Shown: positions 48,072 through 60,338 of the stretch, piece after piece
How positions within the stretch are numbered: position 1 is the stretch's first letter
Layout: every line of letters begins with the position of its first letter
From: Methanomicrobiales archaeon
Lineage (GTDB): Archaea > Halobacteriota > Methanomicrobia > Methanomicrobiales > JACTUA01
NCBI GenBank assembly: GCA_030019205.1
Contig: JASEFH010000004.1
Location: 62,001 to 126,000 of the forward strand
DNA: 64,000 nt
Direction of reading: 5' to 3'
Position numbers and translations under genes: made by a program
The notes under the pieces: generated by a model
Databases searched by the model: none
The model's input: the letters and a program-made list of their open reading frames with translations, nothing else
What the model was told of the DNA's origin: nothing

Positions 48072-49676
48072 TTAGAACGCGGCTATTTCCCCCTCGACGC
48101 CCTCCAGCCCGGCAAGCACCTCGTCCGGTCTGCCCATCCTCGCCACCTTTCCGCCCCGCATCAGGATCAGCCGATCGCACACCTCCCTCACAAACTCCAT
48201 GTCGTGCGAGACGACGATGAACGTCTCCTCCATCTCCTGGCGGGCCTGGAGGATGGAGTGTTTCACGTCGATCTTGGTGATGGGGTCCATGGTGCCGGTC
48301 GGTTCGTCCAGGATCACCATGCGGGGTTCGCGGATCAGCACCTGGGCGAGGGCCACGCGGTGCCGCTCCCCCTCCGAGAGCTGACCCGGGTAGCGGTCCA
48401 GGATCTCGCGGCTCTTCTCCTCGGAGAAGCCGGCCATGCGCAGCGTGAGCACGGCCTTGCGCACCGCCAGTTCCTTGGGGAACTCGAGCCCGATCGCATC
48501 GGTGAGGTTGTCGAGCACGGTGCGGTGGGGGTAGAGGTCGTACTCCTGGTGCAGCAGCCCGATATACTCCTTCGCCCGCCCCCGCTGGTCGATCCCCGGC
48601 TTGGTCATGTCGATCCAGGTGTCCCCGATGCGGATGTTCATCTCCCCGCTCGTCGGCTCGATGATCCCCGCCATGATCCGGGAGAGCGTCGTCTTGCCCG
48701 CACCGCTGGCTCCCACGATGCCCAGGATCTCCTTCTCCGCAATCTCGAAGCTGACCCCGTTCACCGCCCGGACCATGCCCCGGTCCAGGGTGATGTACTT
48801 CTTCGTCACATCCCGCGCGACCAGAACTGCCTTCCCCGCGGGGCAGACGCCCTCCTCTACGGCAGCTCCGCGCTGCTGCAGAAAATGCGCCACGATCTCC
48901 TTCGGAGAGCCTATCGATGCGATCCTGCCGTCTTCCAGGAGGAGCGCCCTGTCTGCCACATCCTCGATCACGCGTGAGAAGTGGGACGTGATCACCATGC
49001 TCATGCCGTTCTCCCGCACGGCCCCCACCAGCATGTCGTGAACAAGAGCGGACGTGGCCGGATCGAGCGTTCCCGTGGGTTCGTCGGCGAAGAGGACGGC
49101 CGGCTCCTTCGCGAGCTGGCGGGCGAGCACCACCCGCTGCTTCTCCCCGCCGGAGAGGTCCCGGGCGATGTGCATCATGCGGTGGGAGAGCCTCACCCGG
49201 TCGATCAGCTCGGCGGCGCGGCTGATGGCCGATTCCGGAGGATGCCCCGCATCGTCCAGCGCCCGCAGCACGTTCTCGATCACCCGGTCGTTGCCGTAGA
49301 GGGCGAACGTCCGCTGGAACATGGTCGCCGTCCGCCGCATGACCCGCCGCCGCAGCCCTTCGTCATCCGTATTCCAGAGATCGATGTCCATGGACGTGAG
49401 GTCTCCCCCGCAGAGCGGACAGGGCATGCCGGCTCTTCCGGGAAGTTCGAGACGGGAGCATCGGGTGCAGGCGGACAGGTGGTAGACAATCCTGCCGCCG
49501 GTCGGGGGATGATCCAGACCCCGCAGCAGGTGCATCAGCACCGTCTTCCCGGCTCCGCTTCTTCCAATGACTCCCAGGATCTCTCCGCTTCCGATCTGGA
49601 AGGAGATGTGCTTCAGGACCTCCTTTCCGTCAAAGGACATGCAGAGATCTTCCACTGTAACCAATGGCGTCTTCAT
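48072..49676 (-). CDS. atwA: MCR activation ATPase, component A2
   Basis: 534 aa protein of two fused ABC ATPase domains, no membrane segments. Walker [10 protein letters not shown] and GASGAGKTT; signature motifs LSGGEKQRV and LSEGERHRV; Walker [14 protein letters not shown] and [13 protein letters not shown] zinc-ribbon-like insertion in domain 1, [20 protein letters not shown], matches the A2 family. It powers reductive activation of the MCR Ni centre together with McrC. ATG 49676 has AGGTGA upstream; GTG 49682 is in frame. Single gene with its own promoter. Confidence 0.92.
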
Positions 49677-49800
49677 GCTCACCTCTCCCTGCCGCGGTCA
49701 TGTATCAGGATCCGTTCCGTGATCGGGACGGCTGTCAGCGGGACACTTCTCCACAGCCATCCCCGCAACCCGGATCCCCGGATGGGTCGGGGACGACTCC

Positions 49801-50365: not shown

Positions 50366-51244
50366 TCAGATGTCCACGCCGAGTGCCGATCGGACGACGA
50401 GGCCGATCGCGAACGATGCCGCCGCAATGCCGAGGCTGATTGCAGCCATCTCCGAAAACCTCCTCCAGAAGGGGAGCCCCTTCGCGACCGAGATGTAGAA
50501 TGTGAATGCCAGAATCACCAGAATGGCTCCGGTGAGGGTGAGGGGGAGAGCCGCGAACGGGTTCTCCAGGAGCAGGTAGGGCGCGACCAGCACCCCGACC
50601 GTCGCCACGTACGCCCCTCCCGTGTAGACGGCCGCCGTCAGCGGGCTTTCCCGACCGTCCGACTTCCGCGAGAGGTACTCGGATGCCCCCATGGAGAGCG
50701 AGGCGGCAATCCCCGTGATGATGCCCGCACCGGCGATGAGGCGGGCGTTCTGGAGCGCAAACGTCAGCCCGGCGAGGGTGCCCGTGAACTCGACCAGGGC
50801 ATCGTTCAGTCCCAGCACGACCGAACCCACGTAGCGGAGCGCCTTCTCGTCGATCATCCCCGCGAGCTGGTTCTCGTGCTCGATCTCGTCCGCTGCGATC
50901 CGCCCCGCCAGAGGGATCTCCGCCGAGAGTCTGCGGTACTCTCCGATCGCCCGGTTCTCTCCCCCCTCCATCAGCTGGATTCCGAACGTGATCCCGAGGA
51001 TGCGGGCAATGCCGCAGTACAGCCAGATGCGCAGGGCATCCGGCTGGACCGGCTCCCCGGTCAGATCTCTCCAGAGCCGGTAATGCCTGTGCTCCTCTTC
51101 TGCCAGCCGTAACAGCACCTGCCGGTTGCTCCCCTCCGGCACCGAATGCGCGAGCATTCGGTAGATGTGATGCTCGGTCAACTCCCCCCTCTGGAGAGCG
51201 AGGATCTCCGTTCGCAGGTGCTGCGGGATCGATTGGTCTCTCAT
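50366..51244 (-). CDS. Ferritin-like domain fused to VIT1/CCC1 transporter
   Basis: 292 aa. Residues 1-140 are a rubrerythrin/ferritin-like helical domain with Glu and E-E-x2-H patterns (RLAEEEHRHYRLW, ADEIEHENQLAG). Residues 140-292 are the membrane part of the VIT1/CCC1 iron-manganese family with about five helices (GLNDALVEFTGTLAGL, GIAASLSMGASEYLSRKS). Such fusions probably export or sequester Fe2+ or Mn2+. It is immediately upstream of the DUF134 gene on the same strand, 78 bp apart. Confidence 0.88.
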   Translation of the reverse strand: MRDQSIPQHLRTEILALQRGELTEHHIYRMLAHSVPEGSNRQVLLRLAEEEHRHYRLWRDLTGEPVQPDALRIWLYCGIARILGITFGIQLMEGGENRAIGEYRRLSAEIPLAGRIAADEIEHENQLAGMIDEKALRYVGSVVLGLNDALVEFTGTLAGLTFALQNARLIAGAGIITGIAASLSMGASEYLSRKSDGRESPLTAAVYTGGAYVATVGVLVAPYLLLENPFAALPLTLTGAILVILAFTFYISVAKGLPFWRRFSEMAAISLGIAAASFAIGLVVRSALGVDI

Positions 51245-52141: not shown

Positions 52142-53041
52142 ATGGTTGACCAAATTGTGTTTGGCATCGGAATAACTGCACTGGCCGGAGCTCTCGCCAC
52201 TGTGGCCGGCGCTGCGGAAGACACGGAATCTGATATCGGGTCCCAGGGTGATCCGAACTCTCAGGTTCAGCTGGCTCCGCAGATGGGGTACATTCACCGA
52301 ATTTTCAACAAAGCGATTGCCGGTGAACCCCCTGCCTACGGATTGTGGGTAGCGCTGGGTGCTGGAGTGGCATGGGCTCTGATGGCCATGCAGGTGAATG
52401 CGGTGCTCGCGATCATCCTCGGTTCTGCGCTGGCAGTCTTCGTTCAGGGGATCTATGCCACCACGGCATACCTGGGGAGAATCGCAAGTCTTGCAAAGTT
52501 CGGACAGCCGGTGTACATCGATATCATCAAGTCGATGACCACCGTGACCATGGCGCACGCGTTCGTGGCCGTATTCACGACTGTGACGGTGTGCTACCTG
52601 ATCAACGTGGCTCTGGGCCACCCGTTCCCGCTGCCGCTGCTCGGCCTCGTATGGGGTATTGCCCTCGGTGCGGCAGGTTCTGCGACCGGTAACCCGTTCT
52701 ACGGGAAAGAGCGGCAGTACCAGTCCCAGAAGTTCGGTGCGGGCGTACCGATTGCTGCTTCGGGCAACATCGTGCGGTACGCAGAGGCCGGCGAGCGCAA
52801 CTCGCTGGATAACGGATGGTTCTCGTCCAAACTCGGCGGTCCTGCGTCGGGTGTCTGTTTTGGTCTGATCGTCTTCTTCGAACTCTGGCGTACGGTCATC
52901 TTCGAGGAGATCGCAAACGGCTGGGGTGCCGTCATCGTCGGCATTCTGGTGATCCTGATCTTCGCCGTCATCGACCGCTACATCGAGATCTGGGCCCGCA
53001 AGACCTACGGTCCGTATGGAAAACCAGAGGAGGCGGCGTAA
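52142..53041 (+). CDS. mtrE: Tetrahydromethanopterin S-methyltransferase subunit E
   Basis: 299 aa membrane subunit of the Na+-translocating methyl-H4MPT:CoM methyltransferase. About six helices; early GALATVAGAAEDTESDIGSQGDPNSQVQLAPQMGYIHR (shown here by its SQGDPNSQVQLAPQ part) is family-specific. MtrE, D and C form the sodium-conducting membrane part. First gene of the operon; mtrD starts at the next base. Confidence 0.96.
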   Translation: MVDQIVFGIGITALAGALATVAGAAEDTESDIGSQGDPNSQVQLAPQMGYIHRIFNKAIAGEPPAYGLWVALGAGVAWALMAMQVNAVLAIILGSALAVFVQGIYATTAYLGRIASLAKFGQPVYIDIIKSMTTVTMAHAFVAVFTTVTVCYLINVALGHPFPLPLLGLVWGIALGAAGSATGNPFYGKERQYQSQKFGAGVPIAASGNIVRYAEAGERNSLDNGWFSSKLGGPASGVCFGLIVFFELWRTVIFEEIANGWGAVIVGILVILIFAVIDRYIEIWARKTYGPYGKPEEAA

Positions 53042-53788
53042 ATGGTCGTCCTTGAGACTCTCGGAATCATGGTCATACTCATCGCACTCATCGGCATCAT
53101 CATCGGCGGTGTGCTCATCGGATTCGGCGTGCACTTCGTGCCGGTAGGGGGTGCGCCGGCAGCCATGGGCCAGGCGCCGGGCATTGCGACCGGCGTCGCG
53201 ATGCTTGCGGCGGGTGCAGGGCTCGCCGGGCTCTTCGGTGGTGCCTGGGCAGCGGAACTGGGGCTGCTGGTCGCCCTCGCCGCGGGGGCCGTCGGCGGCG
53301 GGCTCATGATGGCGATCACCCAGCTCATGGTGAACATCATATACATCTTCGGCATGGGTATTCCTGTGGCGTCCGGCAAGGTGGCAAAGGATCCCATCAC
53401 CGGTGACACGCAGACGGAGTTCAAGTCCCAGGGTACCGAAGGTCACGGTCTCCCGTTCGTCTCCTACGCGGGGGGCGTGATCGGCGGCATGCTGGGCGGT
53501 CTGGGCGGAACGCTCATCTACGTCATGCTTCTCGACGTCTACCTGGACGCGCTTCCGCTCATCTACAGCACGAACAAAGAGGCAATCTATCTCGTGGCGG
53601 TATCGCTCGCCGGTATCTTCGCCGTCGGGATGTTCCTCGTGAATGCGGTGCTTGCCGCCTACAACATCACGGGCACCATCGAGGGTCCGCACGACCCCAA
53701 GTTCAAGCGGTTCCCCCGTGACATCGTGGCATCTGCGATTGCGACGGCAGTCACCGGTATCTTCGCCCTCGGGCTCGTGCTGGTGTGA
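53042..53788 (+). CDS. mtrD: Tetrahydromethanopterin S-methyltransferase subunit D
   Basis: 248 aa integral membrane subunit with about six hydrophobic helices (IALIGIIIGGVLIGFGVHF, GGLGGTLIYVMLLDVYLD) and the cytoplasmic DPITGDTQTEFKSQGTEGHGLP loop, conserved in MtrD. Works with MtrE and MtrC in Na+ transport. mtrC follows after 9 bp. Confidence 0.95.
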   Translation: MVVLETLGIMVILIALIGIIIGGVLIGFGVHFVPVGGAPAAMGQAPGIATGVAMLAAGAGLAGLFGGAWAAELGLLVALAAGAVGGGLMMAITQLMVNIIYIFGMGIPVASGKVAKDPITGDTQTEFKSQGTEGHGLPFVSYAGGVIGGMLGGLGGTLIYVMLLDVYLDALPLIYSTNKEAIYLVAVSLAGIFAVGMFLVNAVLAAYNITGTIEGPHDPKFKRFPRDIVASAIATAVTGIFALGLVLV

Positions 53789-53797
53789 GGTGTTCGC

Positions 53798-54661
53798 ATG
53801 ACAGTAAAGGTTGAGGTAAAAGAGGGCGGGATGCCCCACAACCAGATCCTGGCCACCGGGCTGATCGGATCGCTGGTGGGCATCTACATCACGTACCTGA
53901 ACAACATCCTGGGTACCGATCTGCTGGCGTTCTTCGGCGGGATCGCGGCAACTCTGGCACTCTACTGGGGCAGTCACACCATCAAGCGCCTGGCCAGCTA
54001 CGGTATCGGAACGGGCGTTCCGTCCGCGGGCATGATCGCGTTCGGGTCCGGTGTCATCGGGTTCCTGTTTGCCACCCGGTTCGCTATCGGCGGCGGCATT
54101 CTGGTCCCCATCATCGCCGTCATCGCGGCTGCCGTCATCGGAGCGGTTGCCGGCGTCATGGCCAACACCATCCTGAAGATGCACATCCCCGTGATGGTCT
54201 CGGCGCTCATCGAGATGTCCATCGTGGGCGCGCTGACCCTGATGGGGCTGTCGGCGCTGGTCACCGGAAGCTTCACGTTCGACGCTCTCGTCACGTCCCG
54301 GATCTCATTCTTCGGCATGGAGCTCACCACCTACGAGTCGTCCCTGATCGGAGGCAGCATCATCGCCGTGCTCTTCCTCCTGGGTGGCATCGCGATCCAG
54401 CACCCGTTCAACGCCTGTCTCGGCCCCAGCTGGGAGCAGGACCGGATGCTGATGCTCGCTCTCGAGTGCGGGTTCCTGTCCATGATCCCGGCGGCGGTCA
54501 TCTCCTTCGCATTCATCAGCATGGCGGCAGCGACGATCTCGTTCGTGGTGGCCATTGTCGGCTGGTTCTACACATACTACCGCTACATCGAACTCGCCCG
54601 GAGGGATGCGGCATTCTGGCTTGACGCCAAACCGATCAAGGAACCGGAGGCTGGTCACTGA
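53798..54661 (+). CDS. mtrC: Tetrahydromethanopterin S-methyltransferase subunit C
   Basis: 287 aa membrane subunit with about seven helices. Conserved cytoplasmic or loop segments: GGMPHNQILATGLIGSLVGIY, IQHPFNACLGPSWEQDR. Ends in a charged tail. Its stop overlaps the mtrB start by one base (TGATG). Confidence 0.95.
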   Translation: MTVKVEVKEGGMPHNQILATGLIGSLVGIYITYLNNILGTDLLAFFGGIAATLALYWGSHTIKRLASYGIGTGVPSAGMIAFGSGVIGFLFATRFAIGGGILVPIIAVIAAAVIGAVAGVMANTILKMHIPVMVSALIEMSIVGALTLMGLSALVTGSFTFDALVTSRISFFGMELTTYESSLIGGSIIAVLFLLGGIAIQHPFNACLGPSWEQDRMLMLALECGFLSMIPAAVISFAFISMAAATISFVVAIVGWFYTYYRYIELARRDAAFWLDAKPIKEPEAGH

Positions 54662-54945
54662 TGGCATTCGTACATGTTCTGCCCGAATACGGGCTCGTCG
54701 TGGATCCGCTCGTTGGCATCGTCACGACCGCCGCAGAGTCGCTCCAGCCGATCATCGACCGCGTCGCGGAGCTGGAGAAGATCTCGGACGACCTGCTGGG
54801 GATGCTCTCCGGCGAGGGGAACTTCCTGGCGTCGTTCCCGGGGCGGGAGAGATCCCTGGCCATTGCGGGGAGCGTCACGGCGTTCTGGTACGGGCTTGCG
54901 ATTGGACTTCTCATTGCGGGGATCATCGCCCTGCAGCTGCTGTGA
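54661..54945 (+). CDS. mtrB: Tetrahydromethanopterin S-methyltransferase subunit B
   Basis: 94 aa with one C-terminal transmembrane helix (FWYGLAIGLLIAGIIALQLL) and a soluble N-terminus, VLPEYGLVVDPLVGIV. Size and topology match MtrB, which binds MtrA in the stalk. mtrA starts 11 bp downstream. Confidence 0.93.
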   Translation: MAFVHVLPEYGLVVDPLVGIVTTAAESLQPIIDRVAELEKISDDLLGMLSGEGNFLASFPGRERSLAIAGSVTAFWYGLAIGLLIAGIIALQLL

Positions 54946-54956
54946 GGTGAGGAAGG

Positions 54957-55478
54957 ATGGCAGAGAAGAAATCGGCGGCCAGCGGATGGCCGATCTCCAA
55001 GGGTGACTTCCACAGCGGGGACCCCAACAGTCCCATCGCCATCGTCACCATGGGCTCCCACCTCGACGAACAGGGTCTCTGCGACGCCGGGGCGGCGATC
55101 TGCGGCTCCTGCAAGACGGAGAATCTGGGTATCGAGAAGGTGATTGCCAACATCATCAGCAACCCGAACATCCGGTTCCTGATCACCTGCGGGACCGAGG
55201 TCAAGGGGCACCTCTCGGGGCAGACGATGAAGGCCCTGCACAAGGGCGGGGTCAAGGACGGGCGCGTGGTCGGCGCGGAAGGGGCGATTCCGTTCATCGA
55301 GAACCTGAAGGATGAGCACATCAAGCGCTGGCAGGAGCAGGTCGAGGTCGTGGATATCATGGAGACCGAGGATATCGGCACGATCAAGGCCAAGATCAAC
55401 GAGCTCAAGGCCCGGGATCCGGGAGCGTTCGCCGCCGACCCGATGGTCGTCGAGGTCAAGGAAGCCGGCGGCGCGGCC
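54957..55478 (+). repeat. 522-bp direct repeat, copy 1 (mtrA)
   Basis: The first 174 codons of mtrA. By eye no base differs from copy 2 at 55898-56419. The 16 bases CTGTGAGGTGAGGAAG just upstream are also shared. Copies are separated by the mtrA tail and mtrF. Confidence 0.9.
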
Positions 55479-55679
55479 GAGGAGGTCACCGGCGAGGTGA
55501 AGCCGCTCTCGGGCGAGCTCGCGCTCATCCACGCCCGCATCAAGACCATCGAGAAGATGGTGGTCGACATCGGATACCGCGACAAGTTCGCTGCCGGTGT
55601 GTATGCAGGGAAGATCGAGGGAATCATGATCGGGCTGATCGTGATCTTCGCCCTGCTGGGATTCCTGTTGATGGGGTGA
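54957..55679 (+). CDS. mtrA: Tetrahydromethanopterin S-methyltransferase subunit A (corrinoid)
   Basis: 240 aa. Soluble corrinoid-binding domain plus a C-terminal membrane anchor ([19 protein letters not shown]). The cobalt-coordinating His is expected in [12 protein letters not shown]. MtrA carries the methyl group from methyl-H4MPT (via MtrH) to CoM and its conformational change drives Na+ export. Bases 54957-55478 are repeated without change at 55898-56419, in the MtrA-MtrG fusion downstream. This copy keeps the native MtrA tail after residue 174. Confidence 0.95.
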
Positions 55680-55684
55680 TGGAA

Positions 55685-55885
55685 ATGGCAGAAGAGACAA
55701 AAGCACCTAGCGCCATCAGGATGGCAGCAATCGATGCAATGGTCGAGAATATGCGCTACAAGGCGCAGATCCTCGCCCGGACCAACAAGCTGGAGTCCGG
55801 TGTGATCAGCTCGGGAGTCATGGGATTCGCCATCGGGCTGGCCTTCGCGCTGATCCTGGTTGTGGTGCCGGTACTGGTACTGTGA
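55685..55885 (+). CDS. mtrF: Tetrahydromethanopterin S-methyltransferase subunit F
   Basis: 66 aa with one transmembrane helix at the C-terminus (GFAIGLAFALILVVVPVLVL) preceded by MVENMRYKAQILARTNKLESG, the family signature. ATG 55685 has GGGTGAT at good spacing; in-frame GTG 55676 and ATG 55679 overlap the mtrA stop. It sits between the two mtrA copies. Confidence 0.9.
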   Translation: MAEETKAPSAIRMAAIDAMVENMRYKAQILARTNKLESGVISSGVMGFAIGLAFALILVVVPVLVL

Positions 55886-55897
55886 GGTGAGGAAGAG

Positions 55898-56419
55898 ATG
55901 GCAGAGAAGAAATCGGCGGCCAGCGGATGGCCGATCTCCAAGGGTGACTTCCACAGCGGGGACCCCAACAGTCCCATCGCCATCGTCACCATGGGCTCCC
56001 ACCTCGACGAACAGGGTCTCTGCGACGCCGGGGCGGCGATCTGCGGCTCCTGCAAGACGGAGAATCTGGGTATCGAGAAGGTGATTGCCAACATCATCAG
56101 CAACCCGAACATCCGGTTCCTGATCACCTGCGGGACCGAGGTCAAGGGGCACCTCTCGGGGCAGACGATGAAGGCCCTGCACAAGGGCGGGGTCAAGGAC
56201 GGGCGCGTGGTCGGCGCGGAAGGGGCGATTCCGTTCATCGAGAACCTGAAGGATGAGCACATCAAGCGCTGGCAGGAGCAGGTCGAGGTCGTGGATATCA
56301 TGGAGACCGAGGATATCGGCACGATCAAGGCCAAGATCAACGAGCTCAAGGCCCGGGATCCGGGAGCGTTCGCCGCCGACCCGATGGTCGTCGAGGTCAA
56401 GGAAGCCGGCGGCGCGGCC
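55898..56419 (+). repeat. 522-bp direct repeat, copy 2 (in mtrA-mtrG fusion)
   Basis: Matches 54957-55478 base for base by eye. It ends exactly at the ATG that would start mtrG. Confidence 0.9.
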
Positions 56420-56638
56420 ATGGAGGTCGGCGTCGCGGGCGTGAGCCCCCAGTTCCTCGAGATCGAGGAGCGGCTCAACAAGATCGAGAAGCAGATCGAG
56501 TTTGTGGATGCGGAGATCGCCCAGAGAGTGGGCAGAAAGATAGGTAGGGATATCGGGATACTGTACGGGATCGTGGCAGGATTGACGGTCTTCTTCATCC
56601 TGCTGATCCTGTTGCCGAGACTGAGCACGTTAGTATGA
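55898..56638 (+). CDS. mtrG: MtrA corrinoid domain fused to MtrG
   Basis: 246 aa. Residues 1-174 are identical to MtrA, including [12 protein letters not shown] with the cobalt-ligand His. From residue 175 (an ATG at 56420, joined in frame as GCC-ATG-GAG) the protein is Mtr[29 protein letters not shown], a coiled coil, then one membrane helix ([19 protein letters not shown]). MtrG normally is a separate 70-85 aa chain. So the operon reads E-D-C-B-A-F-(A'G)-H. Either a real recent duplication and fusion, or an assembly artefact. Confidence 0.9.
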
Positions 56639-56655: not shown

Positions 56656-57696
56656 ATGTTCAGATTTGAAAAAGAACAACAGATCTGGGACTTCAACGGA
56701 ACCAAGATCGGCGGCCAGCCGGGTCAGTACCCGACTGTGCTCGCCGCTTCAATCTTCTACAACAAGCACGAGATCGTGCTGGACGACAAGACGGGGAAGA
56801 TCGACAAACCGAAAGCCGAGGCGCTCTGGAGCCGCTGCCAGGAGCTGTCCGATACCGTGGGCATCCCCCATTTCCTCCAGATCCTGGCCGAGCACGCGGA
56901 GGCGATGGAGAGGTACATCGACTGGTTCTGCAGCATCGACAGCAAGACGGCATTCCTGATGGACTCGTCCGTCCCGGCGGTGCTGGCGAACGCCTGCAAG
57001 TACGTGACCGAGGTCGGGGTGGCGGACCGTGCGATCTACAACTCCATCAACGGGTCCATCCTTCCCGAGAACGTTGAAGCGCTGAAGAACAGCGATGTCA
57101 ACTCCGCGATCGTGCTCGCCTTCAACCCCGCCGACCCCTCCGTCGCCGGGAGGCAGAAGGTGCTCGCCGAGGGCGGTGTCGCCGGCCAGGCAAAGGGCAT
57201 GCTGCAGATCGCGGAGGAGTGCGGGATCACCCGCCCGATCCTGGACACGGCGGCAACGCCGCTCGGGCTCGGATCCGGCAGCGCCTACCGCGAGATCCTG
57301 GCGTGCAAGGGGATCTTCGGGTATCCCACCGGAGGCGCCTACCACAACATGACGGTGGCATGGACGTGGCTGCGCCGCTGGAAAGGAACGGCGAAGACCC
57401 CGTCGCTGCTGGCGAAGGGATACGAGGGCAAACCTGCCCTGCTGGAGCAGATGAGTCACCACTACCTCGGTGGCATGGAGGGCATCAAGCAGGCGGCATG
57501 GTCCGCTCCGGATATCGGATGCAACATGGTCGCGAGCACCCTGGGTGCGGACCTGATCATGTACGGTCCGATCGAGAACGTCGAGCCCATGATCACCTGC
57601 CAGGCCTACATGGACATCGTGATCCTGGAGGCGGCGCGGGACCTCGGGATCGATCTGGCTCCCGACACCCACCACCCGATCCAGTTCCTCATCTAA
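56656..57696 (+). CDS. mtrH: Tetrahydromethanopterin S-methyltransferase subunit H
   Basis: 346 aa soluble subunit, slightly longer than the roughly 310-320 aa of many homologues. Transfers the methyl group from methyl-H4MPT to the corrinoid of MtrA. Typical TIM-barrel segments: GTKIGGQPGQYPTVL, FLMDSSVP, LDTAATPLGLGSG and GYPTGGAYHN. Last gene of the operon, followed by a T5 run. Confidence 0.95.
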   Translation: MFRFEKEQQIWDFNGTKIGGQPGQYPTVLAASIFYNKHEIVLDDKTGKIDKPKAEALWSRCQELSDTVGIPHFLQILAEHAEAMERYIDWFCSIDSKTAFLMDSSVPAVLANACKYVTEVGVADRAIYNSINGSILPENVEALKNSDVNSAIVLAFNPADPSVAGRQKVLAEGGVAGQAKGMLQIAEECGITRPILDTAATPLGLGSGSAYREILACKGIFGYPTGGAYHNMTVAWTWLRRWKGTAKTPSLLAKGYEGKPALLEQMSHHYLGGMEGIKQAAWSAPDIGCNMVASTLGADLIMYGPIENVEPMITCQAYMDIVILEAARDLGIDLAPDTHHPIQFLI

Positions 57697-59742: not shown

Positions 59743-59946
59743 ATGCCTGGATTCGACAGAACCGGCCCTCTGGGCAGGGGACCACGCACCGGTCGGGGAA
59801 TGGGGTACTGCCGCCCCGGTCTCGTGGACGTTGAGACAGCGTATCCACGGGGTGCATACGTACGTCCTCTGTATGGACTCGGTCGAGGCGGACTTCCCCG
59901 GGGCTGCGGACGGGGCTTTGGCGGCGGCAGGCGAAGGTTCTGGTGA
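59743..59946 (+). CDS. DUF5320 small Gly/Arg-rich protein
   Basis: 67 aa, starting MPGFDRTGPLGRGPRTGRG, the signature of this small family, with MGYC and a C-terminal RGCGRGFGGGRRRFW tail. Strong GGAGGTGA site at 59727-59734. Function unknown; the family is commonly found beside NifX-like and MinD/ferredoxin genes, as here. Confidence 0.82.
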   Translation: MPGFDRTGPLGRGPRTGRGMGYCRPGLVDVETAYPRGAYVRPLYGLGRGGLPRGCGRGFGGGRRRFW

Positions 59947-60008
59947 CTCCGCCTCAAGGTCCGAATGACAATCACCCCCCTGTCCGGAAAGACTGCACGG
60001 AGCACCTC

Positions 60009-60338
60009 ATGATCATCGGAATCGCAAAAGACGGAGACCGGGTCTCACAGCACTTTGGCCGCTGTGAGGGATACAGACTCTACCGCATCGAAGACGGCAA
60101 GATACTGGAACAGAAGGATATCCTCAACCCCGGCCACGAGCCGGGAGTCCTCCCGAGGCTTCTCGCCGACCACGGCGTGAATGTGGTGATTGCCGGAGGC
60201 ATGGGGCCGAAGGCAGCGGACCTCTTCTGCCAGCAGGGCATGGAGGTCTTTACCGGAGTCTCCGGTTCTCTCGACGATGTCGCGCACCAGTTCATCCTCG
60301 GGGAATTGAGAGAGGGAAGGAACATCTGCCATCACTGA
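60009..60338 (+). CDS. NifX/NifB-domain metal-cluster-binding protein (1)
   Basis: 109 aa single Nitro_FeMo-Co domain. Opens MIIGIAKDGDRVSQHFGRC and has VNVVIAGGMGPKAADLF. Members bind iron-molybdenum-type precursors or, in the bacterial orange protein, a Mo-Cu sulfide cluster. A His-rich C-terminus (NICHH) may help. It is 62 bp after the DUF5320 gene and probably cotranscribed; a T5 run lies after its stop. Confidence 0.88.
   Translation: MIIGIAKDGDRVSQHFGRCEGYRLYRIEDGKILEQKDILNPGHEPGVLPRLLADHGVNVVIAGGMGPKAADLFCQQGMEVFTGVSGSLDDVAHQFILGELREGRNICHH

Follow-up and report, generated by a model that had tools for sequence, protein, structure and literature searches.

Mtr is the sodium-pumping methyltransferase of methanogenesis. 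In the stretch of DNA analysed here (64,000 nucleotides of contig JASEFH010000004.1, positions 62,001 to 126,000, denoted the window), the corrinoid domain of its MtrA subunit is encoded twice, the second time in one reading frame with MtrG. This raises the question of how old the arrangement is, what keeps the two copies alike, and whether the second domain could serve as a second methyl carrier.

The fused gene within the mtr operon

The locus, from a methanogen of the Methanomicrobiales, is an mtr operon with the gene order mtrE-D-C-B-A-F-(A-G)-H. The nearest named relatives of the organism belong to the Methanomicrobiales, and its genome relatives within this order have the same layout. 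The features, in window coordinates, are the following.

52142..53041, + strand: mtrE (PF04206, 435 bits)
53042..53788, + strand: mtrD (PF04207, 312 bits)
53798..54661, + strand: mtrC (PF04211, 222 bits)
54661..54945, + strand: mtrB (PF05440, 107 bits)
54957..55679, + strand: mtrA-1, 240 aa, corrinoid domain with its own C-terminal membrane anchor (PF04208; TIGR01111 over its full length, 336 bits)
54957..55478, + strand: corrinoid-domain repeat, copy 1, with identity starting from 54956 (522/522 against copy 2)
55676..55885, + strand: mtrF, between both copies, possibly starting at the ATG at 55685 instead (PF09472, 84 bits)
55898..56638, + strand: mtrA-mtrG fusion (mtrA-2b), 246 aa, a single ORF (PF04208, 281 bits; PF04210, 78 bits)
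55898..56419, + strand: corrinoid-domain repeat, copy 2, including the cobalt-ligand His at aa 85
56399..56449, + strand: variable Gly/Ala/Glu linker, aa 168-184 of the fusion, inside which copy similarity ends (within-genome identity falls from 0.92 to 0.28; 78 genomes)
56450..56635, + strand: MtrG part, aa 185-246 of the fusion (PF04210 positions 11-63; PDB 9qtq_S, 8q3v_G)
56656..57696, + strand: mtrH, 346 aa (PF02007, 338 bits)
57406..57492, + strand: order-specific MtrH insertion, about aa 251-279 (unaligned against M. mazei MtrH, 9qtp)

The stretches 54957-55478 and 55898-56419 are indeed identical, as the original prediction had it, with 0 mismatches over 522 bp; the identity extends 1 nt further to the left and 0 nt to the right. 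The two copies start 941 bp apart and form the only repeat of at least 40 bp within the window. The second corrinoid domain on the MtrG anchor was likewise confirmed: copy 2 is in frame with MtrG, yielding one protein of 246 aa, and profile searches of this ORF (55898-56638) place the MtrA match at aa 4-172 and the MtrG match at aa 185-237. The fusion is flanked by mtrF and mtrH, and upstream of it lies a normal mtrA-1. A search of the genome returned a single MtrG match, which falls in an open frame of 250 aa, and no separate mtrG of ~70-85 aa. An AlphaFold model of the fusion (mean pLDDT 56) suggests at most an alpha/beta head, a loose linker and one long helix.

The MtrF protein (55676-55885) also matches positions 179-237 of TIGR01111, the C-terminal part of the MtrA model, with 23 bits, and by sequence the MtrA anchor and MtrF look related. 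Operon neighbours include a double ABC-ATPase protein (48072-49682, - strand), a VIT-family protein (50366-51244, - strand) and a dinitrogenase FeMo-cofactor-type protein (59943-60338, + strand).

Distribution and history of the two copies

A search for the fusion in relatives, covering 100 genomes and then the class, whose 232 genomes all belong to this order, found it throughout the order, single-contig genomes included. In families f1 to f6 mtrG mostly lies in frames of ~240-320 aa, and there are two MtrA matches separated by ~940 bp; many of the carriers are single-contig genomes, and genus g38, which was examined separately, agrees with this layout. Named carriers are Methanoregula, Methanolinea, Methanocalculus, Methanoculleus, Methanocorpusculum, Methanofollis, Methanogenium and Methanomicrobium. 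The other orders of the phylum have a separate mtrG in frames of ~73-143 aa, and a single mtrA was found in the six outgroup-order loci read, as well as in Methanoperedens. The fusion is ancient and order-wide in Methanomicrobiales.

All candidates for a true unfused mtrG in the order that were opened turned out to be a contig edge, an N gap, a collapsed repeat or a frameshift. Nineteen of the shorter mtrG frames end at a contig edge. In loci L167, L168, L172, L185 and L189 the repeat has collapsed or is disrupted by N gaps or frameshifts; for some short frames close to the start of a contig, the judgement used only their coordinates. Four drafts (L070, L076, L089 and L168) lack the mtrA anchor and mtrF: there, one mtrA-mtrG and then mtrH come after mtrB, and this collapse of the repeat most likely arose during assembly. 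About one-third of the named draft loci end within or at the edge of a repeat copy (L068, L086, L091, L101, L102, L104, L120, L122, L124-L126 and L129-L139, among others), so that mtrA, mtrF and mtrG are often missing or cut in MAGs. Draft assemblies, which often lose a gene at this repeat, should be read with caution.

Three individual loci deserve mention. L113 (JAQVAY010000069.1), a contig assigned to a 'Bacilli bacterium' MAG, carries a Methanocorpusculum-like mtr operon and is likely a binning contaminant. The mtrA-1 frame of Methanogenium cariaci (L111, copy 1) ends after 158 aa, before the anchor, possibly owing to a frameshift or sequencing error. One single-contig genome of the order encodes, apart from its mtr operon, a third MtrA homologue, which is distant (127 bits; G211:C1:5994-6488).

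We compared 78 distinct copy pairs, drawn from 102 loci in which both copies are complete. The two corrinoid domains of one genome have a median identity of 96.9% (93.2% at third codon positions; 78 genomes), as compared with 72.8% and 49.4%, respectively, for mtrA-1 between different genomes; in seven genomes, this one among them, the compared columns are free of differences. The median dS amounts to 0.11 for within-genome and 1.55 for between-genome pairs, and further pairs of the latter kind are saturated. A DNA tree pairs the two copies of a genome as sisters for 55 of the 77 genomes and requires 65 or more changes of copy label; an AU test rejects the grouping of all copy-2 sequences in one clade (p=0.016). 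Similarity between copies is ~92% up to the linker and ~28% past it (78 genomes), a region in which the mtrA-1 anchors of different genomes are 60-80% alike. Since corrinoid-domain similarity ends at the linker and the anchors differ, homogenisation is limited to the corrinoid domain.

Identity, dS, tree and boundary together point to gene conversion, which would proceed via homologous recombination between the two direct repeats. The original prediction had offered ongoing gene conversion as one source of the perfect identity; this is essentially right, except that conversion has been episodic rather than constant. Some within-genome pairs are as low as 80% identical, and 20 of the 78 genomes (many are Methanocorpusculum or Methanomicrobiaceae-type) have an mtrA-1 that resembles a copy from another species more than it does the fusion copy of the same genome.

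The suggestion that the second copy was joined precisely at the mtrG start codon (GCC-ATG-GAG) did not hold. Met occupies the junction column in only two of 78 fusions, this one and L021, which belongs to another family, the others carrying A, G, E, V or a different residue; because Met is so rare there, the junction ATG is not an ancestral mtrG start. The end of copy identity is simply the point where two linkers differ, and no breakpoint. In order relatives, the MtrG parts of the fusions match the profile from about position 5-11 onward, mostly 9-11, so the N-terminal residues of free MtrG (~10 profile positions) have been replaced or can no longer be recognised. An internal start yielding free MtrG was considered and found unlikely, with just 3 of the 78 genomes having a Met in the linker; no well-placed Shine-Dalgarno sequence was seen before the ATG in the window.

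These data allow three other accounts of the repeat to be weighed. The 522 perfectly identical base pairs could reflect a very recent duplication, restricted to this lineage, that put a copy of mtrA ahead of mtrG, one of the two options originally proposed. However, six families of the order, single-contig genomes included, have this fusion at the same place in the operon, its linker is variable and diverged, and dozens of genomes would need independent recent origins; the architecture shared with relatives refutes this account. The genome is a draft of 73 contigs, and the repeat often breaks or collapses assemblies, so that an assembly artefact might be suspected, yet the contig passes through both copies with the unique mtrF in between, the layout is identical in single-contig genomes, and the artefacts observed delete a copy or break the contig but never create one, making this very improbable. 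Finally, the domain is strongly constrained, and selection on the protein alone, without DNA exchange, might keep the copies alike. Such selection does not account for the homogenised third codon positions and dS, nor for equally constrained orthologs being near synonymous saturation, and the identity at synonymous sites refutes this explanation.

A second corrinoid head in the Mtr complex

His85, Glu55, Thr54 and Asp17 occur without exception in both copies across all 78 genomes. The roles reported for such residues are those of cobalt ligand (His84/85), of its partner (Glu) and of other corrinoid contacts (PMC4915002). Because the fusion holds the genome's only mtrG and both copies keep the cobalt-ligand His, two corrinoid heads per Mtr unit may reasonably be expected.

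The Mtr complex is three-fold, and MtrG, whose N-terminus is cytoplasmic, occurs in it three times (PMC10998594, PMC12774963). Cryo-EM shows the MtrA head on a flexible linker (PMC10998594, PMC12774963); the M. mazei complex has six MtrH, which dock on a sheet to which MtrB, MtrF and MtrG contribute their N-termini (PMC12774963, PMC10998594). If the stoichiometry of MtrG is kept and the protein is not cut, each protomer would gain a second head near MtrH, tethered by the cytoplasmic N-terminus of MtrG beside the sheet on which MtrH docks. The three-fold complex would then bear six heads, not three, and the second head may bind corrinoid and act as a second methyl carrier. We found no protein or structural data on the Methanomicrobiales Mtr complex in the literature searched, and both cryo-EM structures found are from organisms with free MtrG.

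The MtrH of the order contains an insertion of ~22-30 residues that is lacking in M. mazei and Methanoperedens; MtrH is accordingly 338-346 aa long in 93 distinct sequences of the order, as against 316 aa in those two. The insertion co-occurs with the MtrA-MtrG fusion, but both lie on the same branch of the tree and count as one event, which gives no statistical support for co-adaptation. It is conceivable, though we find it doubtful, that six working heads (three MtrA and three MtrG) match the six MtrH sites, that the MtrH insertion co-evolved for the MtrG-tethered head, and that each protomer offers two routes of methyl transfer.

It is also possible that the fusion is real while the second head is structural or regulatory, or that the protein is cut in the linker, freeing MtrG, so that there is no second catalytic carrier. 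In favour of this, access to the membrane-distal MtrH site is considered difficult in the M. mazei structure, and turnover might therefore gain nothing from extra heads; the linker also varies among the 78 genomes. Against this stand the cobalt-ligand and corrinoid-contact residues conserved in both copies, and a conversion that keeps the entire domain equal; we consider a non-catalytic role unlikely. The reading that we favour, and hold to be highly probable as a whole, is an ancient, order-wide fusion (mtrA-2b) whose corrinoid domains are homogenised by conversion and whose second head would be a second methyl carrier. With a doubled head throughout the order, the stoichiometry of the complex and the route of the methyl group become testable across a whole order of methanogens.

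Relation to known Mtr systems

The arrangement is already known and was published in 2015. Wang et al. named mtrA-2b, found it in the eight Methanomicrobiales studied and attributed it to long-lasting gene conversion (PMC4632066); it was listed again in 2018 (PMC6053082). A statement in Wang et al. (PMC4632066), citing Sarmiento 2013, has both paralogs as essential. The mtrA-1/mtrA-2b pair described there shares with ours its position between mtrF and mtrH, the fusion itself, the homogenised domain and the differing anchors; the copies are 100% identical here, whereas the published Methanomicrobiales average is 92.4%, and nothing essential differs. What may be new are the larger sample, the episodic nature of conversion, the boundary at the linker, the non-conserved junction Met, the loss of the repeat in drafts and the MtrH insertion. 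The locus is among the few known cases of very long concerted evolution.

Canonical Mtr, as in Methanothermobacter marburgensis (8Q3V) and Methanosarcina mazei (9QTQ), is built from the same eight subunit families, but unlike the system described here it has a free MtrG and one corrinoid head per protomer, and the M. mazei MtrH (316 aa) is without the insertion. Another parallel is the mtrA-2a of Methanococcales and Methanocella arvoryzae, likewise a second homogenised head on another stalk subunit; its anchor, however, is MtrF rather than MtrG, and its origin is reported to be independent (PMC4632066).
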